A program made the translations under genes and the position numbers. Shown in pieces: positions 794 to 39,236 of a stretch of 64,000 bases of DNA. The notes below the pieces were generated by a model. It did not search any database. It was given only the letters and a program-made list of their open reading frames with translations, and was not told the origin of the DNA. Source of the DNA: Candidatus Blastococcus massiliensis AP3 (GTDB lineage Bacteria > Actinomycetota > Actinomycetes > Mycobacteriales > Geodermatophilaceae); assembly GCF_000582785.1 (NCBI RefSeq), contig NZ_HG931173.1:929387-993386 (forward strand), written 5' to 3'. Position 1 is the stretch's first letter. Every line of letters begins with the position of its first letter.

Positions 794-2329
794 ATGACGC
801 AGGTCGAGATCCGCCCGCTCTCCACGACCGCTCCCAGCGTGCCGTCGGAGGAGATCCGCCCGCTCACCGAGCAGTCGCTCGGCCAGTACGGCGACCAGCT
901 CGTCGTCCCCACCTACGACAGGTCGGCGCTGACACCCGCCGTCGTGCACTTCAGCGTCGGGGGCTTCCACCGCTCCCACCAGCTCCTGTACTTCGACGAG
1001 GTCGCCGAGCGCCGCATCAGCTCCGACTGGGGCGTCGTGGGCGTCGGCCTGCACAGCCGCACCATGAAGGACGCGCTGGCCCCCCAGGACCACCTCTACA
1101 CCGTCGTGGAGCGCAGCCCCGACGGCGAGCGCGCCCGCGTCGTCGGGGTGATGATCGACTACCACTTCGCGCCCGACGACCCGGCACGCGTGCTCGACCT
1201 GCTCACCGACGAGCGCACCCGCATGGTGTCCCTGACGATCACCGGCAGCGGGTACCGGCTCTGCCCGTCCCGCGGCACCTTCGACGCCGACGACGTCGAC
1301 ATCCGGGCCGACCTGCGCTGCCCCGACCGCCCCCGCACCGTCTTCGGCTACCTCGTCGAGGCGCTCGACCGGCGCCGCCGCGCGGGCCTGCCGCCGTTCA
1401 CCGTCGTCTCCTGCGACAACATGCACCGCAACGGCGACGCCGCCCGCGCCGCGGTCGTGGGCTTCGCCCGGCTGCGCGACGAGGTGCTCGCCCGCTGGAT
1501 CGCCGACCGGGTGGCCTTCCCCAGCAGCATGGTCGACCGGATCACGCCGCACACCTCCCCGGGCGAGCGCGCGGCCGTGGCCCGGCGCTACGGCGTCGAC
1601 GACCGCTGGCCGGTCATCACCGAGCCGTTCTCCCAGTGGGTCATCGAGGACACGTTCAGCAACGGGCGTCCGCCGCTGGACGAGGTCGGCGTCCGGTTCG
1701 TGCCCGACGTCGGTGACTACGAGCTGATGAAGACCCGGCTGCTCAACGCCAGCCACTGCGCGCTGGGCTACCTGGGTTCCCTCGCGGGCCTCCGCACTCT
1801 CGACGAGGTGATGGCCGAGCCGGTCTTCGCGCACTACGTCGAGCGGCTCATGGACGACGAGGTCACCCCGCTGCTGCCGCCACCCGACGGCATCGACCTG
1901 GCCGACTACAAGCGCACCCTGATGCAGCGGTTCGCCAACCCGGCGATCTCCGACGGGTTGGCCCGCCTGTGCCGCCGCGGCTCGACGAAGATGCCGCACC
2001 ACCTGCTGCCCTCGCTGCGGGAGGCGCTGGACCAGGGCCGGCCGCACCGCCTGCTCACCCTCGGCGTCGCCGGCTGGCTGCAGTACCTGCGCGGCGTCGA
2101 CGAGCACGGAGCGGCGCTGGTCGTCGACGACCCGCTCGCCGAGCGCCTGCAGGCCCTCGCCCGGGCCGGCGGCACCGATCCGCGCCCGGTGCTCGGCCTC
2201 CGCCAGGTCTTCGGCGACCTGGTCGACGACGACGGGTTCGTCGCCGAACTGCGCGAGGCCCTCGAACGCCAGCAGCGGGACGGCGTGCGGGCCGCGCTCG
2301 CCGCGAGCACCGCCGTCCCGCTCCGCTGA
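794..2329 (+). CDS. Mannitol dehydrogenase family oxidoreductase (polyol-specific long-chain dehydrogenase)
   Basis: This 511-residue cytosolic enzyme should interconvert a polyol and a ketose with NAD(P). The N-terminal GGFHR motif (residues 56-60) and the later CDNMHRNG and QWVIEDTF motifs (about 281-287) are those of the mannitol dehydrogenase family. The catalytic triad spacing of this family, Lys-x4-Asn-x2-His, is present as K313, N318 and H321 in KTRLLNASH. GGAGG at 783-787 sets the ATG start six bases on. It opens an operon with a HAD phosphatase, a CDP-glycerol glycerophosphotransferase-like protein and a nucleotidyltransferase, which points to making a polyol phosphate for a wall polymer rather than to sugar catabolism. 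Substrate (mannitol, arabinitol, other, or a phosphate ester) cannot be read from sequence. Confidence 0.88.
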   Translation: MTQVEIRPLSTTAPSVPSEEIRPLTEQSLGQYGDQLVVPTYDRSALTPAVVHFSVGGFHRSHQLLYFDEVAERRISSDWGVVGVGLHSRTMKDALAPQDHLYTVVERSPDGERARVVGVMIDYHFAPDDPARVLDLLTDERTRMVSLTITGSGYRLCPSRGTFDADDVDIRADLRCPDRPRTVFGYLVEALDRRRRAGLPPFTVVSCDNMHRNGDAARAAVVGFARLRDEVLARWIADRVAFPSSMVDRITPHTSPGERAAVARRYGVDDRWPVITEPFSQWVIEDTFSNGRPPLDEVGVRFVPDVGDYELMKTRLLNASHCALGYLGSLAGLRTLDEVMAEPVFAHYVERLMDDEVTPLLPPPDGIDLADYKRTLMQRFANPAISDGLARLCRRGSTKMPHHLLPSLREALDQGRPHRLLTLGVAGWLQYLRGVDEHGAALVVDDPLAERLQALARAGGTDPRPVLGLRQVFGDLVDDDGFVAELREALERQQRDGVRAALAASTAVPLR

Positions 2330-2364
2330 CCACCACCATCCGACGACCGAAGGGACTCCTCCCT

Positions 2365-3120
2365 GTGCCGACCGTTGCGCCGACGCCCGTCGAGCGGGTG
2401 ACGCACCTGCTCTGCGACGCCGACGGCAACCTCTTCCCGTCCGAGGAGCCGGCCTTCGACGCGTCCGTCGAGGTCACCAACGCCTTCCTCGCCTCGCTCG
2501 GGATCGACCGGCGCTTCACCGCGACGGAACTGCGGGCGGCAGCCACGGGGATGAACTTCCGGACGACGGCGCGCACCCTCGCCGAGCAGGGCGGGGTCCC
2601 CGACGCCGACGTCGAGCCGTGGGTCGCCGAGGAGCGCCGTGCGGTCACCGAGCACCTGGCCCGCACCCTGCAGCCGCACCCGCCGACGCAGGCGGCGCTG
2701 CGCACCCTCGCCGGCTCCCTGGAGCTGGCGGTGGTCAGCTCCAGCGCCCTCGCGCGGCTGGCCGCCTGCTTCACCGCCACCGGCCTGGACGAGCTGCTGC
2801 CGCCCGGGCGCCGGTTCAGCGCCGAGGACTCCCTCCCGACCCCGACCAGCAAGCCCGACCCGGCCGTCTACCTGCACGCCTGCCGGATGCTCGGCATCGC
2901 GCCGGAACAGGGGCTGGCCGTCGAGGACGCCGTCGCGGGGGTGCAGTCCGCAGTGGCGGCCGGCTGTCCCGTCATCGGCAACGTGCTGTTCGTGCTGCCC
3001 GAGGAGCGCGACGAGCGGGCCGCCGCGCTGCTGGCCGCCGGCGCACTGGCCGTCGTCGGCTCGTGGGAAGAGCTGGCCGACCTGGTCCTGCCGGCGCCGG
3101 CCGTGGGGGTGAGCCGGTGA
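2365..3120 (+). CDS. HAD-superfamily hydrolase, beta-phosphoglucomutase-like
   Basis: This 251-residue protein has the HAD nucleophile motif as CDADGNLFP, with D18 as nucleophile and D20 as acid/base. Asn replaces the usual Thr after DxDG. SKPDP with K163 is motif III and VEDAVAGV with E187/D188 is motif IV, as in beta-phosphoglucomutase/phosphatase-type HADs. A helical cap lies between motifs I and II. It starts with GTG after an AGGG stretch, 35 bases after the dehydrogenase, and overlaps the next gene by GTGA. The context suggests a polyol- or sugar-phosphate phosphatase or mutase acting with its neighbours; the substrate is inferred, not seen. Confidence 0.82.
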   Translation: MPTVAPTPVERVTHLLCDADGNLFPSEEPAFDASVEVTNAFLASLGIDRRFTATELRAAATGMNFRTTARTLAEQGGVPDADVEPWVAEERRAVTEHLARTLQPHPPTQAALRTLAGSLELAVVSSSALARLAACFTATGLDELLPPGRRFSAEDSLPTPTSKPDPAVYLHACRMLGIAPEQGLAVEDAVAGVQSAVAAGCPVIGNVLFVLPEERDERAAALLAAGALAVVGSWEELADLVLPAPAVGVSR

Positions 3121-4244
3121 ACATCGTCTACGTCGCCTTCCGCGGCCACTTCTCCGACAGCCCCCGCGCGCTCTACGAGGAGCTGCTCGCACGGGGCATC
3201 GACGCCACCCACACGTGGCTGTCCGCCCCGCACACGCAGGACACCTTCCCGCCCGACGTGTCGACGGTGACCTTCGGCAGCCCCGAGTCGATCGCCGCCC
3301 TCGAGTCCGCGGACCTGGTCATCTCCAACGACCACATCCCGCTGGACTGGGAGAAGCGCCCCGGCACCACGTACCTCCAGACCTGGCACGGGACGATGCT
3401 CAAGCGCATCCACAACGACGTGCTGTGGGCGCCCGAGGGCCGGCTGGCCTACCTCGACCAGGACATCGCCCGCTGGGACCTGCTGCTCTCCCCCAACGCC
3501 GTCACCACCGACCGGCTGCGCAAGGCGTTCGGCTTCCGTGGTCCGATCCAGGAGACGGGCCTCCCCCGCAACGACCTGCTGTCCAGCCCCCGGCGCGACG
3601 AGGTGCGCGCCCAGGTGCGCGCGGACCTCGGCGTCAGCGAGGACCAGACGGTGGTCCTCTACACCCCGACCTGGCGCGACGACCTGGTCTTCGAGGGCAA
3701 CCAGGGTCAGGACTTCGAGTTCCCGATCGACCTGGAGGCCTTCACCGAGCGCCTCGGCAGCGACCACGTGCTGCTGCTGCGGCTGCACAACATGGTGATG
3801 AGCCGGCTCGAGGTCGTCGAGGGCTCGGTGGTGCGCGACGTCTGCAGCCACCCGGACATCCGCGACCTCTACCTGGCCGCCGACCTCATGGTCACCGACT
3901 ACTCCTCGACGATGTTCGACTTCGCCATCACCGGACGGCCGCTGGTCTTCTTCACCTACGACCTGGACCGCTACCGGGACGAGCTGCGAGGCTTCTACTT
4001 CGACCTGGAGGAGGTGGCTCCGGGCCCGCTCGTGCGGACCAGCCAGGAACTGGTCGAGGCGATCGCCGACATCGACCGGATCAGCGAGCGGAACGCCGGG
4101 CGGTACGCCCGGTTCCAGCAGATGTTCACCCACCTCGAGGACGGCGCCGCGACCCGGCGGGTCCTCGATCTCATCCTCCCGTCCGCAACCGCGTCCGGGC
4201 AGACCAGCAGAACCGAGGGAGATGATGTCCGTGCGCAACGGTGA
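3117..4244 (+). CDS. CDP-glycerol glycerophosphotransferase family protein (TagB/TagF-like)
   Basis: This 375-residue enzyme resembles the catalytic domain of teichoic acid glycerophosphotransferases, which move a polyol phosphate from a CDP-polyol to an acceptor or growing chain at the inner face of the membrane. Visible family motifs are TWHGTMLKR near residue 90, YTPTWRDD near 180, and the C-terminal DLYLAADLMVTDYSS block, whose DYSS sits in the nucleotide-binding region. No transmembrane helix is seen, as expected of a peripheral enzyme. The GTG start overlaps the stop of the HAD gene, implying translational coupling. It may be a primase or a polymerase, and the polyol need not be glycerol. 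Confidence 0.87.
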   Translation: MNIVYVAFRGHFSDSPRALYEELLARGIDATHTWLSAPHTQDTFPPDVSTVTFGSPESIAALESADLVISNDHIPLDWEKRPGTTYLQTWHGTMLKRIHNDVLWAPEGRLAYLDQDIARWDLLLSPNAVTTDRLRKAFGFRGPIQETGLPRNDLLSSPRRDEVRAQVRADLGVSEDQTVVLYTPTWRDDLVFEGNQGQDFEFPIDLEAFTERLGSDHVLLLRLHNMVMSRLEVVEGSVVRDVCSHPDIRDLYLAADLMVTDYSSTMFDFAITGRPLVFFTYDLDRYRDELRGFYFDLEEVAPGPLVRTSQELVEAIADIDRISERNAGRYARFQQMFTHLEDGAATRRVLDLILPSATASGQTSRTEGDDVRAQR

Positions 4245-5055
4245 CCGCGTACTCAACCCCGTCCGGCGGGGTAGGGCACCCCTCTCGACGCGATCGACCG
4301 GCCGACGGGCCCTCGCCCCCTCGGTGCAGGTGATCATCCTGGCCGCGGGCATGGGCACCCGCCTGGGGCGACAGGACCCCAAGCCGCTCACCCCGCTGCG
4401 CGACGGCCGCAGCATCCTGCAGCGCCAGATCGACGGCCTGCGCTCCGTCCTCGGCGAGGACGTCAGCGTCACGGTCGTCGTTGGCTACCGCAGCAAGCGG
4501 ATCATGAAGGCGGCCCCGGACCTGCTGTTCGCCTACAACCCCGACTTCGCCGTCACGAACACGTCGAAGAGCCTGCTGCGCGGGCTGCGCTCGACCCGCG
4601 AGGGCGGCGTCCTGTGGCTCAACGGCGACGTCGTGTTCGACCCCGCGGTGCTCGAGGTGGCCCTGCCGACGATGACGGCCGACCAGAGCTTCGTGTGCGT
4701 CGACACCAGCACCGTCGCCGAGGAGGAGGTCAAGTACACCCTCGACTCCGACGGTTTCGTGCGCGAGCTGTCCAAGACCGTCGTCGGCGGGCTCGGTGAG
4801 GCCGTCGGCATCAACTACGTGTCCTCGGCCGACAAGGCCACCCTCGTCGACCACCTGAGCGCGTGCGACGACCAGGACTACTTCGAGCGCGGCATCGAGA
4901 CCGCCATCGCCACCGAGGGCCTGCGGGTCCGGCCGGTGGACATCTCGGCGTACAGCGCGGTCGAGGTCGACTTCGAGACCGACCTGGCGCGGGCCAACAC
5001 GCTGTTCCCGGGGCCGCTGAACACCGTCGCCGACCTCGCCGCCGAGGTCGGCTGA
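4222..5055 (+). CDS. Nucleotidyltransferase (sugar/choline-phosphate cytidylyltransferase-like)
   Basis: This 277-residue protein carries the nucleotidyltransferase signature VIILAAGMGTRLG with PKPLTPL just after it, and a metal-binding LNGDVVFD later. The fold is that of LicC-like phosphocholine or polyol-phosphate cytidylyltransferases, which activate a phosphorylated head group as a CDP derivative. It overlaps the previous gene by 23 nt. Starts at 4222, 4225 and 4231 share one GAGGGA site, and a GTG at 4324 would remove an unusual 34-residue N-terminal extension. As last gene of the operon it could make the CDP-polyol used by the TagF-like enzyme. CTP use is inferred from context. Confidence 0.83.
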   Translation: MMSVRNGDRVLNPVRRGRAPLSTRSTGRRALAPSVQVIILAAGMGTRLGRQDPKPLTPLRDGRSILQRQIDGLRSVLGEDVSVTVVVGYRSKRIMKAAPDLLFAYNPDFAVTNTSKSLLRGLRSTREGGVLWLNGDVVFDPAVLEVALPTMTADQSFVCVDTSTVAEEEVKYTLDSDGFVRELSKTVVGGLGEAVGINYVSSADKATLVDHLSACDDQDYFERGIETAIATEGLRVRPVDISAYSAVEVDFETDLARANTLFPGPLNTVADLAAEVG

Positions 5056-5101: not shown

Positions 5102-5809
5102 TCAGCCCGCGACGATGGCCAGGTCGTGGGCGATGTCGCGGTTGGTGTTCCCGTCGTCGAACGCGACGTGCGCGGCGTCGTCGGCGCCGAAGAGCAGCAT
5201 GAGGGCCGAGTGCGCCCGGCCGTTGTCCTCGGCGACCTCGATGCCCGAGGCCAGCTGCGCCTGCTCGACGGCCGCCACCTCGCCGGTGAGCCCGACGAAC
5301 GGCCGGGGCAGGCCGCTGTCGAACCGCGCCAGGTACTCCCCCAGCACCTCGGGGGTGTCGGTGGCCGGGTCCGTCGTCACGAACACCACCTGGACCTGCT
5401 CGGCGATCGCCGGGTCCACCATCCGCAGCGCCGTCGCGACGTCGGCCATCGTGTTCGGGCACACGTCCGGGCACGTGGTGTAGCCGAAGAAGAGCAACGT
5501 GGGCCGCCCCGCGGTCTCCGCCTTGAAGTCGTACGGCGCACCGGTGGTGTCGGTCAGCGTGAACGGCGCCTTGCGGTACGGCTCGGCGAGGTCGAAGCCC
5601 GCGTAGACCTGGTCGGGGCCCTTCACCTCCGCGGGAGCGGCTCCCGAGTGGTCGTGCCCACCTGCGGCGCTGGGCGTCGCGTCGTCCGCCGACGACGACC
5701 CTCCACAACCGGCCAGCGCCAGGCCCGCGGCCAGCAGGACGGCCGGGGCCGCCCGCCACCGGGCCGGTGCCGGGCGGGAGCGGGCGCGGCGCAGGACGTC
5801 GGGAGTCAC
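5102..5809 (-). CDS. SCO1/SenC family copper chaperone lipoprotein
   Basis: The protein (235 residues) has a lipoprotein signal with lipobox LAGC (Cys35), so it should sit on the outer face of the membrane. The thioredoxin-like domain contains the copper-binding CPDVCP motif (two Cys, CxxxC) after FFGYTT, and a downstream His-containing stretch NRDIAHDL. SCO proteins deliver copper to the CuA site of cytochrome c oxidase. The mature N-terminus is Ser/Gly/His-rich. The GTG start overlaps the stop of the ycnI-like gene (GTGA), placing it last in a copper operon. Confidence 0.9.
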   Translation of the reverse strand: MTPDVLRRARSRPAPARWRAAPAVLLAAGLALAGCGGSSSADDATPSAAGGHDHSGAAPAEVKGPDQVYAGFDLAEPYRKAPFTLTDTTGAPYDFKAETAGRPTLLFFGYTTCPDVCPNTMADVATALRMVDPAIAEQVQVVFVTTDPATDTPEVLGEYLARFDSGLPRPFVGLTGEVAAVEQAQLASGIEVAEDNGRAHSALMLLFGADDAAHVAFDDGNTNRDIAHDLAIVAG

Positions 5810-6537
5810 GAGCCCACGGTACGACGCCCGGCGCGGGCGGCCAGGACGGCGGCGGCGATCGCCCCGAGCAGCGCCAGGACCGCGACGAACAGCGCGAGAC
5901 CCGCCGGAGCGTTGTCGACGTCGCCGTGCCCGGCGTCGGTGGCCGTGCCGTCGCTGTTCCCGGCGCTCGCGCCGTCCGCCCCGCCCGCACTGCTCGACGC
6001 GGTGCTCAGCGAGAGGACGGGCGCCGGCCGCTCGGGCTCCTCGCCGTCGACGGTCGGCTCGATCCACGCCGCCTCGCTGCCGTCGCTGTAGAGCTGCACG
6101 GACGGATAGGCGAACTCGGTGCTCTCGGGGAAGGGCCCGCCGGAGAGCGCGAACTCCTGGAACTCCCCCGGGGCGATGCCGGGACCCGTGGCCCGGAACT
6201 CCACGAGGGAGACGTAGGAGGTGATCTCCCGCCCGTGCGACTCCATCGGCTCCTCGAGCTCGGACTCGCTGAGCGTCGCGGTCCAGCCCGGCACGGGCTG
6301 CACCCGCAGGGACGCCAGCGCCGCCTCCTCGGGGATCTGGATGCGCAGGCCCACGGTGCTGGCGACGTCGCTCTCGTTGGGCACGCGGAAGGTGAGCTTC
6401 CCGTAGCCGCCGGGGGCGGCGTCGGCCGAGGAGACGGTGACGTGCGCGGACGCGGTCGCGGCGGTGGTCACCGACGCGGCGAGCGCGACGAGCAGCGCCA
6501 CCAGCACGGTGGCGGCCCGGGATCGGGGGCGGGACAT
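5806..6537 (-). CDS. YcnI family (DUF1775) copper-binding membrane-anchored protein
   Basis: This 243-residue protein has a signal peptide ending ATASA, so the mature chain begins with His (HVTVSS), the residue used with others to bind Cu(II) in YcnI proteins. A DUF1775 beta-sandwich domain follows, then an Ala/Gly/Ser/Asp-rich linker and a C-terminal transmembrane helix with an Arg-rich end. AGGAGA nine bases ahead supports the ATG at 6537 over one at 6558. It lies between the CopC-CopD fusion and the SCO gene, so it probably takes part in copper handling outside the membrane. Confidence 0.9.
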   Translation of the reverse strand: MSRPRSRAATVLVALLVALAASVTTAATASAHVTVSSADAAPGGYGKLTFRVPNESDVASTVGLRIQIPEEAALASLRVQPVPGWTATLSESELEEPMESHGREITSYVSLVEFRATGPGIAPGEFQEFALSGGPFPESTEFAYPSVQLYSDGSEAAWIEPTVDGEEPERPAPVLSLSTASSSAGGADGASAGNSDGTATDAGHGDVDNAPAGLALFVAVLALLGAIAAAVLAARAGRRTVGS

Positions 6538-6574
6538 GTGGACGGGTCTCCTGTTCATCGGGTGAGTGGCACGT

Positions 6575-8371
6575 TCAGCGCACCTTCAGGTCGGTGCTCG
6601 CCGTGGTGGCGGTGAACTCGTCGAGACGGACGGTGACGGTGAGGGTCCAGGTGCCGGCGTTCGGGACCGGCATGGCCTCGGCGAGGTAGTGCCCGGGGCC
6701 GGCGGGCCGGAGCTGGACGTCGAGGGGGCCGATGTCCTGGCTCGGCTCGGTGAGGGACACCCCGATGTCGGCCGGCTGGGTGAGGCGGCCCTGGTCGTCG
6801 AAGAGGTAGAGGCGCAGCTCGTTGGGGCCCACCTTGCCCGGGGCGACCGACACCTGGACGCTCCCCACCTCACCTCCGGTGCCCTGCAGCGGGAGCAGCA
6901 CGTCGATGGGCTGGGCGACGGTCGCGCGCGCCGGAGGTGTGCCGACCAGGACGGCCGACAGCACCAGGACGACGACGGCGCCGGCCACCTCGACCAGCAT
7001 CGAGCGGCGCAACGACGGCAGGTGCGCGACCGCGTTCTCCGACTGCGCCCGGCCGCGGGAGACCGCGGTCCCGTCCTCGTCGTCGGGCCGGTCGTCCGCG
7101 CCGGTGGGGGCGGCGAAGGCCTGGGCGGTCACCCGGCGCACACCGCCCGGTCGGGGCCGGCGCACACCCAGCCGCTGCTGGACCCACACCCGTGAGACCC
7201 CGGCCGCCCCGAGCACCACCAGGACCACCGCGATCTTGGCCAGCAGCACGCCGCCGTAGGTGTTCCCGACCAGCGCCGACGGCGTGGCCACCTCCCGGAC
7301 CGCCTGCACGACCCCGCTCACGACCAGGGCGACGACGGCGCCGAAGGCGACGCGGGAGAAGCGGGACATGGCCCGGGCCACGTCGTCGGCGTCCGGAGCC
7401 GGCCGCAGCAGCCCGATCAGGAGCCCGGCCAGCCCGCCGAGCCAGACGGACATCGCCGCCACGTGCACGGCGGCCACCGCGACGGCCAGCACCGGCCAGG
7501 AGCCGGCGACCGGGTGGCCGATCGCGGCGGTGGCGACCACGAGGCCGATCGCGAACACCGCCGCGGCCGCGAGCTGCGGGGTCCCGGGCGCGCGTCCCCG
7601 CCGCCAGGCGGGCGCGAGCGCGGCGGCCAGCGCCAGGGCCAGGGCCGCGCGGGCCAGCAGAGACCAGCCGGTGCCGGAGGAGGCGGTGGAGGAGAGCAGT
7701 TCCGGATCGAACAGCGCGCCCGGACCCCCGCCCGACGTGTACGGGCCCTGGAGCAGGAAGGCCAGCAGGGCGGTGCCGGCGGCGAGCAGCGCACCACCGA
7801 CGGCGAGCCGGCGCAGCCGCGCCGACGCCCAGCCGGTCGGCCAGCACAGCAGCGCCAGCACGGGGATCCCGACGGCCAGGGCGATCCCGGCGAAGCCGAG
7901 GGCGCGCACCACCGGGAGGACCGCGGCGACGACGGGGTCGGCGTCGGCGTCCCCCGCGGTCGACCCCACCGGCACGAGATCACCGTCGCCGACGACGAAG
8001 GAGAAGGCGCCGGAGATGGGATGGGAGTCGGCGGAGACCACCCGGTAGGTGACGAGGTAGCCGCCGTCGTCCACGTCCGCCGGGAGCGGGATGCCGAGCA
8101 CGCGGCCGTCCACCGAGGCGTCGTCGCCGGCCACCTGGTCGCCGTCGGCGGTGAGGACCCGGGCGTAGCCGGCGCCGAGGGAGACGCCCTCGCTGAACTC
8201 CAGCGTCACCTCCGCCGGCGCGCTCTCCAGGCGCGCCCCCTCCCCCGGATCGGTGGCAACGAGGGTGGCGTGCGCGGCCGCCGGCCCCGCGGTCGCGACC
8301 CCGCCGGCGAGCCAGGCGGACAGCGCGAGCAGGACGAGCAGGACGTTCCGGAGGGACGCCTGCCGGGTCAC
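6575..8371 (-). CDS. CopC-CopD fusion: copper-binding domain plus copper transport membrane domain
   Basis: The 598-residue protein joins a periplasm-type CopC domain to a CopD membrane domain. After the signal peptide the mature protein starts AHATLVATDP, placing the copper-binding N-terminal His where CopC has it; DSHPISGAFSFVV carries the second CopC site. Around eight hydrophobic helices of CopD follow, with a cytosolic loop rich in Arg and Asp, and an extracytoplasmic C-terminal beta-rich domain of about 110 residues. It overlaps the zf-HC2 gene by GTGA. The fusion is common in actinobacteria and likely imports or buffers copper. Confidence 0.9.
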   Translation of the reverse strand: MTRQASLRNVLLVLLALSAWLAGGVATAGPAAAHATLVATDPGEGARLESAPAEVTLEFSEGVSLGAGYARVLTADGDQVAGDDASVDGRVLGIPLPADVDDGGYLVTYRVVSADSHPISGAFSFVVGDGDLVPVGSTAGDADADPVVAAVLPVVRALGFAGIALAVGIPVLALLCWPTGWASARLRRLAVGGALLAAGTALLAFLLQGPYTSGGGPGALFDPELLSSTASSGTGWSLLARAALALALAAALAPAWRRGRAPGTPQLAAAAVFAIGLVVATAAIGHPVAGSWPVLAVAVAAVHVAAMSVWLGGLAGLLIGLLRPAPDADDVARAMSRFSRVAFGAVVALVVSGVVQAVREVATPSALVGNTYGGVLLAKIAVVLVVLGAAGVSRVWVQQRLGVRRPRPGGVRRVTAQAFAAPTGADDRPDDEDGTAVSRGRAQSENAVAHLPSLRRSMLVEVAGAVVVLVLSAVLVGTPPARATVAQPIDVLLPLQGTGGEVGSVQVSVAPGKVGPNELRLYLFDDQGRLTQPADIGVSLTEPSQDIGPLDVQLRPAGPGHYLAEAMPVPNAGTWTLTVTVRLDEFTATTASTDLKVR

Positions 8372-9009
8372 GCGGTCACCCGCCGGCCGACGACCCCGCC
8401 CGAGCGTCCCCGGGAGGCGCGCCACGCCACCACGGCAACCAGGACGACGCCGGCCAGGAGCAGCAGGTGGGCGGCCGCCCGTTCCGGGTGCACGTGACCG
8501 GACGACAGGTCGGCGACGGTGACCGGCACGAGCAGGACGCTGAGGGTGCCGAGGAAGGGAAGGGCGCCGGCCGCGAGCCGGGGCGCCGCGGCCACGGCGA
8601 GGAACGAGGCCCCGACGGCGAGGTTCCAGGCGCCGCTCTCGTGGGCCATGTGCACCGGCGCGCTCATCGCGCCGGCGCCGTGGACGAGCACCGGCCAGGC
8701 CAGCCCCGCCTGCGCCACGCCGACCGCGAGCAGTGCCAGCCGCAGGGCGGTGTCGAGCAACCTGGCGCGGGCGGCCGCGGCCACCCCGGGCAGTTCGCGC
8801 GGCAGCGCCGTCAGCACGGCGGCGGTCAGGTCGGGAACGGCGGGCGCCGGTGCCAGGCGGGCGCGGCGGGTCACCGCGGCGGCGTCGTCCGCCCAGCCGG
8901 CGCACGCCGGGCAGACGGACAGGTGGTCGTCGAGCGCGCGGGCGGGCATTCCGAGCGGCTCGTCGTCGAGACGTGCGGAGAGCGCCTCGCGGAACGGCTG
9001 GCAGGGCAT
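8368..9009 (-). CDS. zf-HC2 domain membrane protein (putative anti-sigma factor)
   Basis: This 213-residue protein starts with a zinc-binding anti-sigma motif, HLSVCPAC (H29, C33, C36, spacing Hx3Cx2C), followed by at least four hydrophobic helices, so it would hold a sigma factor at the membrane. Its gene is divergent from the ECF sigma gene (102 nt between starts) and is the first gene of the copper operon, with a GTGA overlap into CopC-CopD. This arrangement suggests that it antagonises that sigma factor and that the system senses copper or envelope state. Several membrane His residues (HMAHE, HVHPE) could bind metal. Confidence 0.8.
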   Translation of the reverse strand: MPCQPFREALSARLDDEPLGMPARALDDHLSVCPACAGWADDAAAVTRRARLAPAPAVPDLTAAVLTALPRELPGVAAAARARLLDTALRLALLAVGVAQAGLAWPVLVHGAGAMSAPVHMAHESGAWNLAVGASFLAVAAAPRLAAGALPFLGTLSVLLVPVTVADLSSGHVHPERAAAHLLLLAGVVLVAVVAWRASRGRSGGVVGRRVTA

Positions 9010-11482: not shown

Positions 11483-12490
11483 GTGAAGACGCTCGTCCTG
11501 CTCGCCCTCGTCGGCCTGGGCGCCCAGCTCGTCGACGGCAGCCTCGGCATGGCCTACGGCGTCACCTCGACGACGCTGCTGCTGGCCATCGGCACCAACC
11601 CGGCGCTCGCCTCGGCCACCATCCACCTCGCCGAGATCGGGACGACCCTGACCTCCGGGCTGTCCCACTGGAAGTTCGGCAACGTCGACTGGAAGGTCGT
11701 CGCCAAGATCGGCATCCCCGGCGCGGTCGGGGCCTTCGCCGGCGCGACGTTCCTGTCCGGCCTGTCGACCGAGCTGGCCGCCCCGGTCATGTCCCTGATC
11801 CTGGTGACGCTCGGCGTCTACCTGCTGGTCCGGTTCACCCTGCGCGGCATCGACCGGCGCAACCTGGGCAAGCCCGTCCGCAAGCGCTTCCTCGGCCCGC
11901 TGGGCCTGGTCGCCGGCTTCGTCGACGCCACCGGGGGCGGCGGCTGGGGTCCGGTCGGCACGCCGGCGCTGCTGGCCAGCGGGCGGATGGAGCCCCGCAA
12001 GGTCATCGGATCGGTCAGCACCGCGGAGTTCCTGGTCGCCCTGTCCGCCAGCCTCGGGTTCCTGGTCGCGCTGGGTTCCCAGGGGATCAACTTCGCGTGG
12101 GTGACAGCCCTGCTCGTGGGTGGGTCCATCGCCGCACCGATCGCGGCCTGGCTGGTGCGGCACATCCCGCCGCGCATGCTCGGCTCCTTCGTCGGCGGCC
12201 TCATCATCCTCACGAACTCCCGGACACTGCTCCGGAGCGACTGGATCGACGCCGGCGACGCCACTCGCTACGCCGTCTACGCGGCCATCGCGGCGGTGTG
12301 GGTGCTGGCGGTCGTGCACTCCTTCCGCGCGTACCGCAGGGACCGCGCCCTGGAGTCGGCCGAGGCGGTCGCCGAGCAGGTCGAGCAGGTCGAGCAGGTC
12401 GAGCAGGTCGAGCGCAACGTCGTCGCCGAGCTGCCGCAGCCCGTCGCCGGGCCCGTCCCGGCCGGCCGCCCGAGCGCCCCCCGCGACTAG
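11483..12490 (+). CDS. TauE/SafE family sulfite/sulfonate-type permease
   Basis: The 335-residue protein has the duplicated TauE/SafE fold: two halves of about four helices each. The first half has GSLGMAYGVTSTTLLLAIG and the second GFVDATGGGGWGPVGTPALLASG, the typical Gly-rich re-entrant segments. TauE/SafE proteins move sulfite, sulfoacetate or other organosulfur anions. The leader peptide upstream supports a sulfur role regulated by cysteine supply. The C-terminal tail after the last helix is cytosolic, charged and contains a four-fold EQV repeat. Its stop codon shares four bases (CTAG) with that of the convergent epimerase gene. Confidence 0.87.
   Translation: MKTLVLLALVGLGAQLVDGSLGMAYGVTSTTLLLAIGTNPALASATIHLAEIGTTLTSGLSHWKFGNVDWKVVAKIGIPGAVGAFAGATFLSGLSTELAAPVMSLILVTLGVYLLVRFTLRGIDRRNLGKPVRKRFLGPLGLVAGFVDATGGGGWGPVGTPALLASGRMEPRKVIGSVSTAEFLVALSASLGFLVALGSQGINFAWVTALLVGGSIAAPIAAWLVRHIPPRMLGSFVGGLIILTNSRTLLRSDWIDAGDATRYAVYAAIAAVWVLAVVHSFRAYRRDRALESAEAVAEQVEQVEQVEQVERNVVAELPQPVAGPVPAGRPSAPRD
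12374..12409 (+). repeat. Four tandem copies of a 9-bp unit inside the permease tail
   Basis: GAGCAGGTC is repeated four times exactly in frame and encodes Glu-Gln-Val four times (residues 298-309). The exact nucleotide identity implies recent slippage or expansion; the peptide is a short charged helix in a variable tail. Confidence 0.9.
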
Positions 12491-13473
12491 GAACGAGTGT
12501 GTCCGGAGGCGAGCAGGTGCGCCTCCAGGTCCTCCGGCAGGCCGGGCCCCGGCTGCGCCGCCGGCGGGCGTCCGTGCTCCTGCAGCCACGTCCAGGTGTC
12601 GGCCACCGACTCGCGCAGCGGTCGGCCCGGCAGCCCCAGCTCCCGGGCACGGGTGGTGTCCACGTCCCAGGCCGTGACAGCGACGTCGCGCGGTAGCCAC
12701 AGCGGCAGGTGCGTCCACGGCTGCACACCGGCGCCGAGCAGTTCGGCCTCGGGCAGCGGCACCCACTCCGCGTCGCTGCCGGTGACCTCCCGGCAGGTCT
12801 CGAGGAGGCCGCCGAGGGTGGTCATGCCGACCGGGCCGGTCGCGTTGACCGCCCCGGAACGCCCCTGCTCGGCCATCTCCACCAGCCAGCCGGCGAGGTC
12901 GCGGGCGTCGACCAGCGCGATCGGCTGGGCGAGGGCGTCCGGCACGACGACACGCCCGCCACGGGCGATCCGCTCCAGCCACCAGCCGAGCCGGTGGACG
13001 GGGTCGGAGGGCCCGACCAGGAGACCCGCGCGGGCGGTGAGGAACCGGTCGCCGAGCGCCCCGGCGAGGGTCCGCTCGGCGTCGGCCTTGATCGGCCCGT
13101 ACTCGTCGTCGTCGCCGTCCCACACGGGCTCGGAGTCCTCGGGCCCGATCGGCCCTGGGGGCCAGTTCCGGTAGGCGTTGAGGCTGCTGACGAAGGCGTA
13201 GCCGCGCACCCCGGTCAGCGCCGCGGCGGCGTTCCGCCCGGCCTCCCGCGTCTGGCAGGAGGTGTCGACGACGAGGTCCGGCGGCCCCCACGACTCCAGC
13301 GCACGCGGCAGCGCGTCGGGGTCGTCCCGGTCGCCGTGCAGCGGCAGCGCGCCCTCGGGCGGCCCACCGGAGATCCCGCGGGTGAACGTGGCGACGTCGT
13401 GGCCGCGCTCGAGCGCCGCCGTCGCCACGTGCCGGCCGAGGAAGTGGGTGCCACCGAGGACCAGGAGCCGCAT
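12487..13473 (-). CDS. NAD-dependent epimerase/dehydratase family protein
   Basis: The 328-residue protein starts with the Rossmann motif LVLGGTHFLGRHVA (GGTxFxG), as in extended short-chain dehydrogenases of the CDS-like/isoflavone-reductase-like group. The YxxxK catalytic pair appears as EYGPIKADAE near residue 125. The mid region LVDARDLAGWLVEMAE is typical of the same group. It probably reduces or epimerises a small metabolite with NAD(P)H, but the substrate is unknown. It is transcribed toward the permease gene and the two stop codons overlap in CTAG, so no terminator fits between them. Confidence 0.82.
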   Translation of the reverse strand: MRLLVLGGTHFLGRHVATAALERGHDVATFTRGISGGPPEGALPLHGDRDDPDALPRALESWGPPDLVVDTSCQTREAGRNAAAALTGVRGYAFVSSLNAYRNWPPGPIGPEDSEPVWDGDDDEYGPIKADAERTLAGALGDRFLTARAGLLVGPSDPVHRLGWWLERIARGGRVVVPDALAQPIALVDARDLAGWLVEMAEQGRSGAVNATGPVGMTTLGGLLETCREVTGSDAEWVPLPEAELLGAGVQPWTHLPLWLPRDVAVTAWDVDTTRARELGLPGRPLRESVADTWTWLQEHGRPPAAQPGPGLPEDLEAHLLASGHTRS

Positions 13474-38860: not shown

Positions 38861-39236
38861 TGGTGGAGGTGGCGGGAATCGAACCCGCGTCCTTCGACGC
38901 ACAACCAGGGCTTCTCCGAGCGCAGTCTGCGTTGCCTCTGCTCGACCCCGTCGATCATGCAGACAAGTCGACGTGACGGGCCCAGTCGCTGTGTGGTGTC
39001 CCGCACGCACCCGCGACCGGCACGTGCGGTGAGTCATCTAGCTGATGCCAGGATCCGGGCCGATGACGAACCCGGGCTGACAGACTCGCCTAGCTGCTAT
39101 CAGGCAGCGAGAGCGAAGTCGCGCTGATTGGAATCGGCGCTTGTGTTTTTTGCAACGGATCGTTAACGAGATGATCGTTGCCTTCCTCGGCTCGCTTCCC
39201 CTGGTCCAACGACCGAAGTCGAGACCATTCACCCCC
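38861..39236 (-). ncRNA. ssrA: Transfer-messenger RNA (tmRNA)
   Basis: The 376-nt RNA begins GGGGGUGAAUGGUCUCGAC and ends with a T-arm (GGGUUCGAUUCCC type) and CACCUCCACCA with encoded CCA. The 5' GGGGGUG pairs with 3' CACCUCC to form the acceptor stem. The tag frame reads ADSNQRDFALAA (39100-39138) ending in TGA, close to the mycobacterial tag ADSHQRDYALAA. tmRNA with SmpB rescues stalled ribosomes and tags products for proteolysis. smpB is 6.4 kb away in the same window. Confidence 0.97.

Follow-up and report, generated by a model that had tools for sequence, protein, structure and literature searches.

The 64,000-nucleotide stretch of Candidatus Blastococcus massiliensis AP3 analysed here (contig NZ_HG931173.1, positions 929,387 to 993,386; referred to as the window) carries a four-gene locus encoding a polyol dehydrogenase (DH), a HAD hydrolase, a TagF-like transferase (TagF) and a nucleotidyltransferase (NT). 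Comparison with related genomes shows that the locus consists of a constant core, TagF and NT, and an exchangeable upstream block, DH and HAD. In four genera it is the type of TagF, and not that of NT, which co-segregates with this polyol module, and this is the new point of the analysis. Judged by its sequence, NT appears blind to the presence of DH and HAD. Since TagF co-varies with the two module enzymes and NT does not, DH and HAD may supply something that is recognised by TagF and not by NT.

In a sample of 88 loci from the family, DH and HAD lie directly upstream of TagF in 58 and are absent from 30, the TagF–NT core being found in both groups. Almost every family genome with TagF and NT has the two side by side, and the order of the four genes is shared by most Blastococcus genomes and by other Geodermatophilaceae genera, which shows that the arrangement is not due to chance. 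An earlier interpretation of the window (the sequence-only reading) had treated the four genes as one unit; this holds for TagF and NT, which stay together in relatives, but not for DH and HAD, which are separated from NT. Alignments of syntenic pairs reveal a block of about 2.5 kb that is cleanly present or absent between matching flanks. In one such pair (L120 and L049), DNA identity amounts to 96–98% across almost the whole of NT and past it and to 93% in the upstream flank, as compared to 64–83% in TagF. Where the block is lacking, the gene next to TagF on its upstream side invariably lies on the opposite strand, so that nothing replaces DH and HAD, and a search for a replacement gene accordingly gave no candidate. 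A related HAD was not found elsewhere in 12 block-lacking family genomes searched, with the exception of one weak match (E 4e-9). One block-lacking genome (L226; G484 C193) displays stop codons in both TagF and NT and probably represents a decaying locus.

Many Blastococcus genomes contain a tyrosine-recombinase-like gene and a tRNA-Ala(GGC) gene a few kb ahead of the operon. In L033 these are found at positions 11602–13176 and 12868–12942, just upstream of window position 1, and the same site is seen in L028, L035, L036 and L043. Mobile elements may thus integrate at a site adjoining the exchanged block.

Both forms of the locus occur in four genera, and within each of these the identities of TagF to the window protein do not overlap between loci with and without the block (79–91% vs 66–70%, 72–78% vs 59–64%, 68–80% vs 54–61%, and 61–64% vs 54–59%), whereas in the same comparison the NT ranges do overlap. 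In short tree searches, the block label changed 3 times along the TagF tree and 14 times along that of NT, where well supported branches force at least 8 of the changes; a careful search with 38 rows gave 2 and 5 changes, respectively. Eighteen block-lacking TagFs from three genera form a single clade with a support of 99 in the Shimodaira-Hasegawa-like approximate likelihood ratio test (SH-aLRT), which indicates that TagF alleles move between genera. At the residue level, 58 TagF columns separate the two types above the maximum of within-genus permutations, and columns 73, 75, 100 and 112 do so perfectly. In NT, no column separates them beyond chance in such permutations.

Reading frames and Pfam searches confirmed that the four genes are present on the forward strand under approximately the names proposed earlier (Table 1). 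DH and TagF score far above the Pfam cut-offs, and HAD and NT also exceed them; the families called are Mannitol_dh, HAD, Glyphos_transf and, for NT, MobA-like NTP transferase. The operon had been described as tightly overlapping. HAD overlaps TagF by 4 bases and TagF overlaps NT by 23, in agreement with this description; between DH and HAD, however, there is a gap of 35 bases. The host genome belongs to Blastococcus (Geodermatophilaceae), and the relatives in named genomes are from Blastococcus and other Geodermatophilaceae.

Table 1. Genes of the polyol module and the TagF–NT core in the window.
Gene	Position	Strand	Length (aa)	Assignment
DH	794..2329	+	511	Long-chain polyol dehydrogenase, mannitol 2-dehydrogenase type; PF01232 + PF08125
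HAD	2365..3120	+	251	Subfamily IA hydrolase, motifs intact
TagF-like	3117..4244	+	375	Single-domain PF04464 transferase of the glycosyltransferase B (GT-B) type; DH/HAD-associated type
NT	4222..5055	+	277	LicC/PntC/inositol-1-phosphate cytidylyltransferase-like nucleotidyltransferase; probable CTP:polyol-phosphate cytidylyltransferase

The explanation we tentatively prefer, at somewhat less than even chances, is that NT makes a CDP-polyol common to both forms of the locus, that DH and HAD make a free polyol for the acceptor side of TagF, and that the block occurs with a TagF allele adapted to it. Specifically, NT would use CTP to activate a polyol phosphate, which is most likely glycerol phosphate and would yield CDP-glycerol, and the adjacent TagF would move the polyol phosphate from the CDP-donor onto an acceptor. 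HAD would dephosphorylate a ketose phosphate or a polyol phosphate, and DH would interconvert ketose and polyol, releasing free polyol. This product could bypass NT and be recognised by TagF as acceptor or as end group of a chain. Substrates, reaction direction and acceptor role are predictions from sequence, as is the assignment of the product to a wall polymer or a soluble phosphodiester.

The active site of TagF is consistent with this scheme. Its histidines H91 and H224 correspond to H444 and H584 of Staphylococcus epidermidis TagF and are invariant in all 88 loci, and the protein matches PF04464 with 310 bits against a cut-off of 22.1. It is nearer to TarF (252 bits) than to TarL (84 bits); however, with 252.5 bits it stays below the cut-off of 550 bits of the TarF equivalog NF041712. 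The residues holding CDP-glycerol are known in S. epidermidis TagF and Cps3D (PMC11666461). Mapped onto the window protein they are H91, G92, T93, R151, R222, H224, S263, S264 and D268, which are the same in both TagF types, the exceptions being a single damaged gene and positions 94 and 183, which vary. CDP-glycerol is a candidate donor. Unlike the unchanged donor contacts, the 12 columns that separate the types best (accuracy ≥ 0.95) cluster in the N-domain, where 11 of them are located; this domain is typically the acceptor side of GT-B enzymes (PMC11666461). Most of the residues with the best separation belong to the N-terminal half, close to H91, the catalytic base. With NT apparently blind, TagF responsive and the contacts unchanged, a common CDP-donor combined with a DH/HAD-dependent acceptor would be the simplest arrangement.

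The window genome (G000) encodes a single PF04464 protein, and the TagB/TagF pair of canonical wall teichoic acid synthesis, with its TagB-type primase, is therefore missing. This favours a product outside the wall: TagF might add one glycerol phosphate to the free polyol expected from HAD and DH and thereby form a soluble glycerophospho-polyol solute, for example under drought or salt stress. Such a product would also fit the presence of solitary DH–HAD pairs in other actinobacteria, as would suit solute metabolism, and the lack of exporter, glycosyltransferase or ligase genes inside the operon; TagGH export and LCP ligation genes are likewise absent from the operon, the rest of the genome not having been searched for export or anchoring genes. 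However, in other actinobacteria related NT genes are found beside genes for PF04464 proteins, ABC-2 (TagG-like) transporters and CDP-alcohol transferases, which is indicative of surface polymers. A soluble product is considered unlikely.

The predicted structure of NT has a mean predicted local distance difference test (pLDDT) score of 86, with low confidence for the N-terminal 31 residues. Although no sequence match to any solved structure was found for NT, Foldseek placed its predicted fold closest to PntC (E 3e-16) and LicC (E 4e-14) and also returned inositol-1-phosphate cytidylyltransferase, the identity to these enzymes being about 20%. Fold and GxGTRL..PK signature together assign NT to the LicC/PntC-like enzymes, and based on this structural similarity, CTP and an alcohol phosphate are likely substrates. 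The latter is probably glycerol phosphate, giving CDP-glycerol, because TagF resembles TarF more than TarL and because a glycerophosphodiesterase gene adjoins NT just downstream in four loci, including those of Actinophytocola and Actinokineospora. Glycerol phosphate is further favoured by the distant loci L159, L161 and L162, in which HAD and TagF occur without a close NT and a TagD-like gene is present (117–134 bits), and by the finding that NT and TagD-like genes did not co-occur in any of 365 sampled genomes, as compared to 3.7 overlaps expected. Separately, a distant NT relative in L027 (8378–10858) lies with a gene predicted to encode an iron-type alcohol dehydrogenase and with a probable gene for a CDP-alcohol transferase, identified by eye; this may be another CDP-alcohol pathway.

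DH indeed possesses the full catalytic Lys-Asn-His set reported before (K313, N318, H321), which is invariant in 33 orthologues. Alignment to mannitol 2-dehydrogenase structures, of which 7rk4 is the best solved match (462 bits), revealed that N209, D248, E310, R391 and K399 are conserved as well; these are presumably polyol contacts, as in the Pseudomonas enzyme. In combination, the catalytic set and the Asn, Asp, Arg and Lys contacts (N209, D248, R391, K399) place DH in the mannitol 2-dehydrogenase family. DH and its clade differ from four solved long-chain polyol dehydrogenases in having TITG or TITD instead of TITE at codon 151, which could be a substrate marker of the clade. DH scores below every NCBIfam equivalog cut-off, reaching at best 67.7 bits for MtlD against a cut-off of 368. 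In HAD, all four motifs are intact (D18xD20, S125, K163 and E187-D188) and would suit a phosphatase or a phosphotransferase alike. A kinase gene is absent from the operon, the rest of the genome not having been searched for kinases. Given the unphosphorylated product expected of HAD, the free-polyol type of DH and the lack of an operon kinase, the product of DH and HAD would be more in keeping with an acceptor than with an NT substrate.

DH–HAD pairs without TagF and NT are found not only within the family but also elsewhere in the order and in actinobacteria beyond it, and further pairs occur with TagF but without this NT. DH–HAD is therefore an independent polyol module which has been recruited to TagF. 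In L163 and L164, from the same order, DH–HAD–DH triplets provide a second context for HAD. The many solitary pairs, one of which (L160) is flanked by sugar-transport-like genes, would also be expected if DH and HAD formed a sugar-alcohol pathway of their own, with no more than a positional relation to TagF and NT. However, the TagF type follows DH and HAD in four genera and across exchanges between genera, and HAD remains paired with TagF in the distant genomes L159, L161 and L162, in L162 even with DH missing from the pair, which makes a chance neighbourhood very improbable. Co-transfer of the module with TagF was examined by distance correlation; DH, unlike HAD, follows TagF more closely than NT, and no co-transfer is therefore claimed.

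The sequence-only reading had proposed a single linear route in which DH reduces a ketose, NT produces a CDP-polyol and TagF polymerises it. This would require that HAD acts as a phosphotransferase or that DH accepts a ketose phosphate, and that block-lacking strains feed another polyol phosphate to the same lax NT; the route is possible only if NT is promiscuous. Gene set, gene order and the CTP-enzyme-like fold of NT are in favour, and the genetic linkage of a polyol dehydrogenase, a TagF-type polyol-phosphate transferase and such an NT does support the suggested polyol and teichoic acid connection. The pneumococcal CDP-2-glycerol route, composed of reductase, phosphotransferase and cytidylyltransferase, offers a parallel, and in the pneumococcal CDP-mannitol route an MtlD-type enzyme feeds a dedicated cytidylyltransferase. 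A mannitol teichoic acid is documented in the actinobacterium Brevibacterium iodinum (PMC6801904), so that it is not far-fetched to consider polyols besides glycerol and ribitol. However, DH and HAD are dispensable, residues and tree of NT are silent on their presence even between L120 and L049 with their 97–98% identical NT cores, and both DH–HAD and HAD–TagF exist without NT. Moreover, the missing operon kinase and the free-polyol residues of DH, far below the MtlD cut-off, do not fit a CDP-mannitol-type pathway. These results weaken a simple four-step CDP-mannitol operon, and we regard the linear route as a rather doubtful, though serious, alternative.

Several points weigh against the reading in which DH and HAD serve the acceptor side of TagF. 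The permutations leave the shared ancestry of TagF alleles in, and because of this ancestry the 58 columns are not independent; on the TagF tree, only two switches at least are forced. Outside the family the pattern weakens: L051, with no HAD in its genome, has some of the block-associated residues, and the TagFs of L159, L161 and L162 hold only part of them. As a universal code the residues are thus only partly matched in these three loci and outgroups, and they are therefore kept as a family-internal marker. Donor polyol and acceptor lie close together in the cleft, so that N-domain changes could also reflect the donor polyol, and a promiscuous NT would likewise show no adaptation. Finally, the mutual exclusion of NT and TagD-like genes is weak and phylogenetically clustered, with one Blastococcus (G008) having both; replacement of TagD by NT, tried by anti-co-occurrence, gave the predicted direction with a weak signal. 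A more specific proposal, which is doubtful at present, is that TagF acquired in evolution an acceptor site that takes the free sugar alcohol produced by the neighbouring DH and HAD, giving rise to glycerol-phosphate chains capped or primed with polyol or to a glycerophospho-polyol solute, and that related actinobacteria toggle the trait by exchange of DH–HAD–TagF against a DH/HAD-independent TagF.

Downstream of the locus, convergent genes on the reverse strand (window 5102–8905) resemble by eye SCO1-, YcnI- and CopC/CopD-like copper genes, which are syntenic in Blastococcus relatives both with and without DH and HAD. A transfer-messenger RNA gene with the tag ADSNQRDFALAA is located at window positions 38861–39236 on the reverse strand.

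The sugar alcohol of a teichoic-type transferase is rarely revealed by sequence alone. Here, many related strains with the same cytidylyltransferase and two TagF types, one of them tied to a polyol module, constitute a replicated natural experiment, which corrects the tempting view of a CDP-polyol operon as one linear pathway. Residues 73, 75, 100 and 112 and their neighbours make up a short list of expected determinants of TagF specificity. Sister strains with and without the block allow a direct comparison of wall or solute chemistry. The data suggest that exchange of a small block of genes lets related Blastococcus-group strains alter the chemistry of a surface polymer or solute with phosphate linkages, and the widespread actinobacterial NT may stand in for TagD. 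In the open literature searched, nothing relevant was found on teichoic acids or CDP-mannitol in Geodermatophilaceae.

Window TagF shares fold family, catalytic histidines and CDP-glycerol contacts with the TarF/TagF glycerophosphotransferases, but differs in being a lone, single-domain PF04464 protein below the TarF cut-off with two alleles tied to a polyol module. The pneumococcal sets for CDP-mannitol, CDP-arabinitol and CDP-2-glycerol have reductase and cytidylyltransferase in common with the locus, and the last also includes a phosphotransferase; in contrast to these sets, the reductase, which lacks the MtlD-type feature, and HAD are dispensable here and NT does not co-vary. The locus is perhaps best described as that of a teichoic-type transferase whose precursor module can be exchanged, a situation reminiscent of the cassette exchanges by which capsule or teichoic acid types are switched. 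There, as here, alternative alleles are swapped at one locus between constant flanks; unlike there, the exchanged unit comprises a two-gene precursor module with its own transferase and is found across four Geodermatophilaceae genera.

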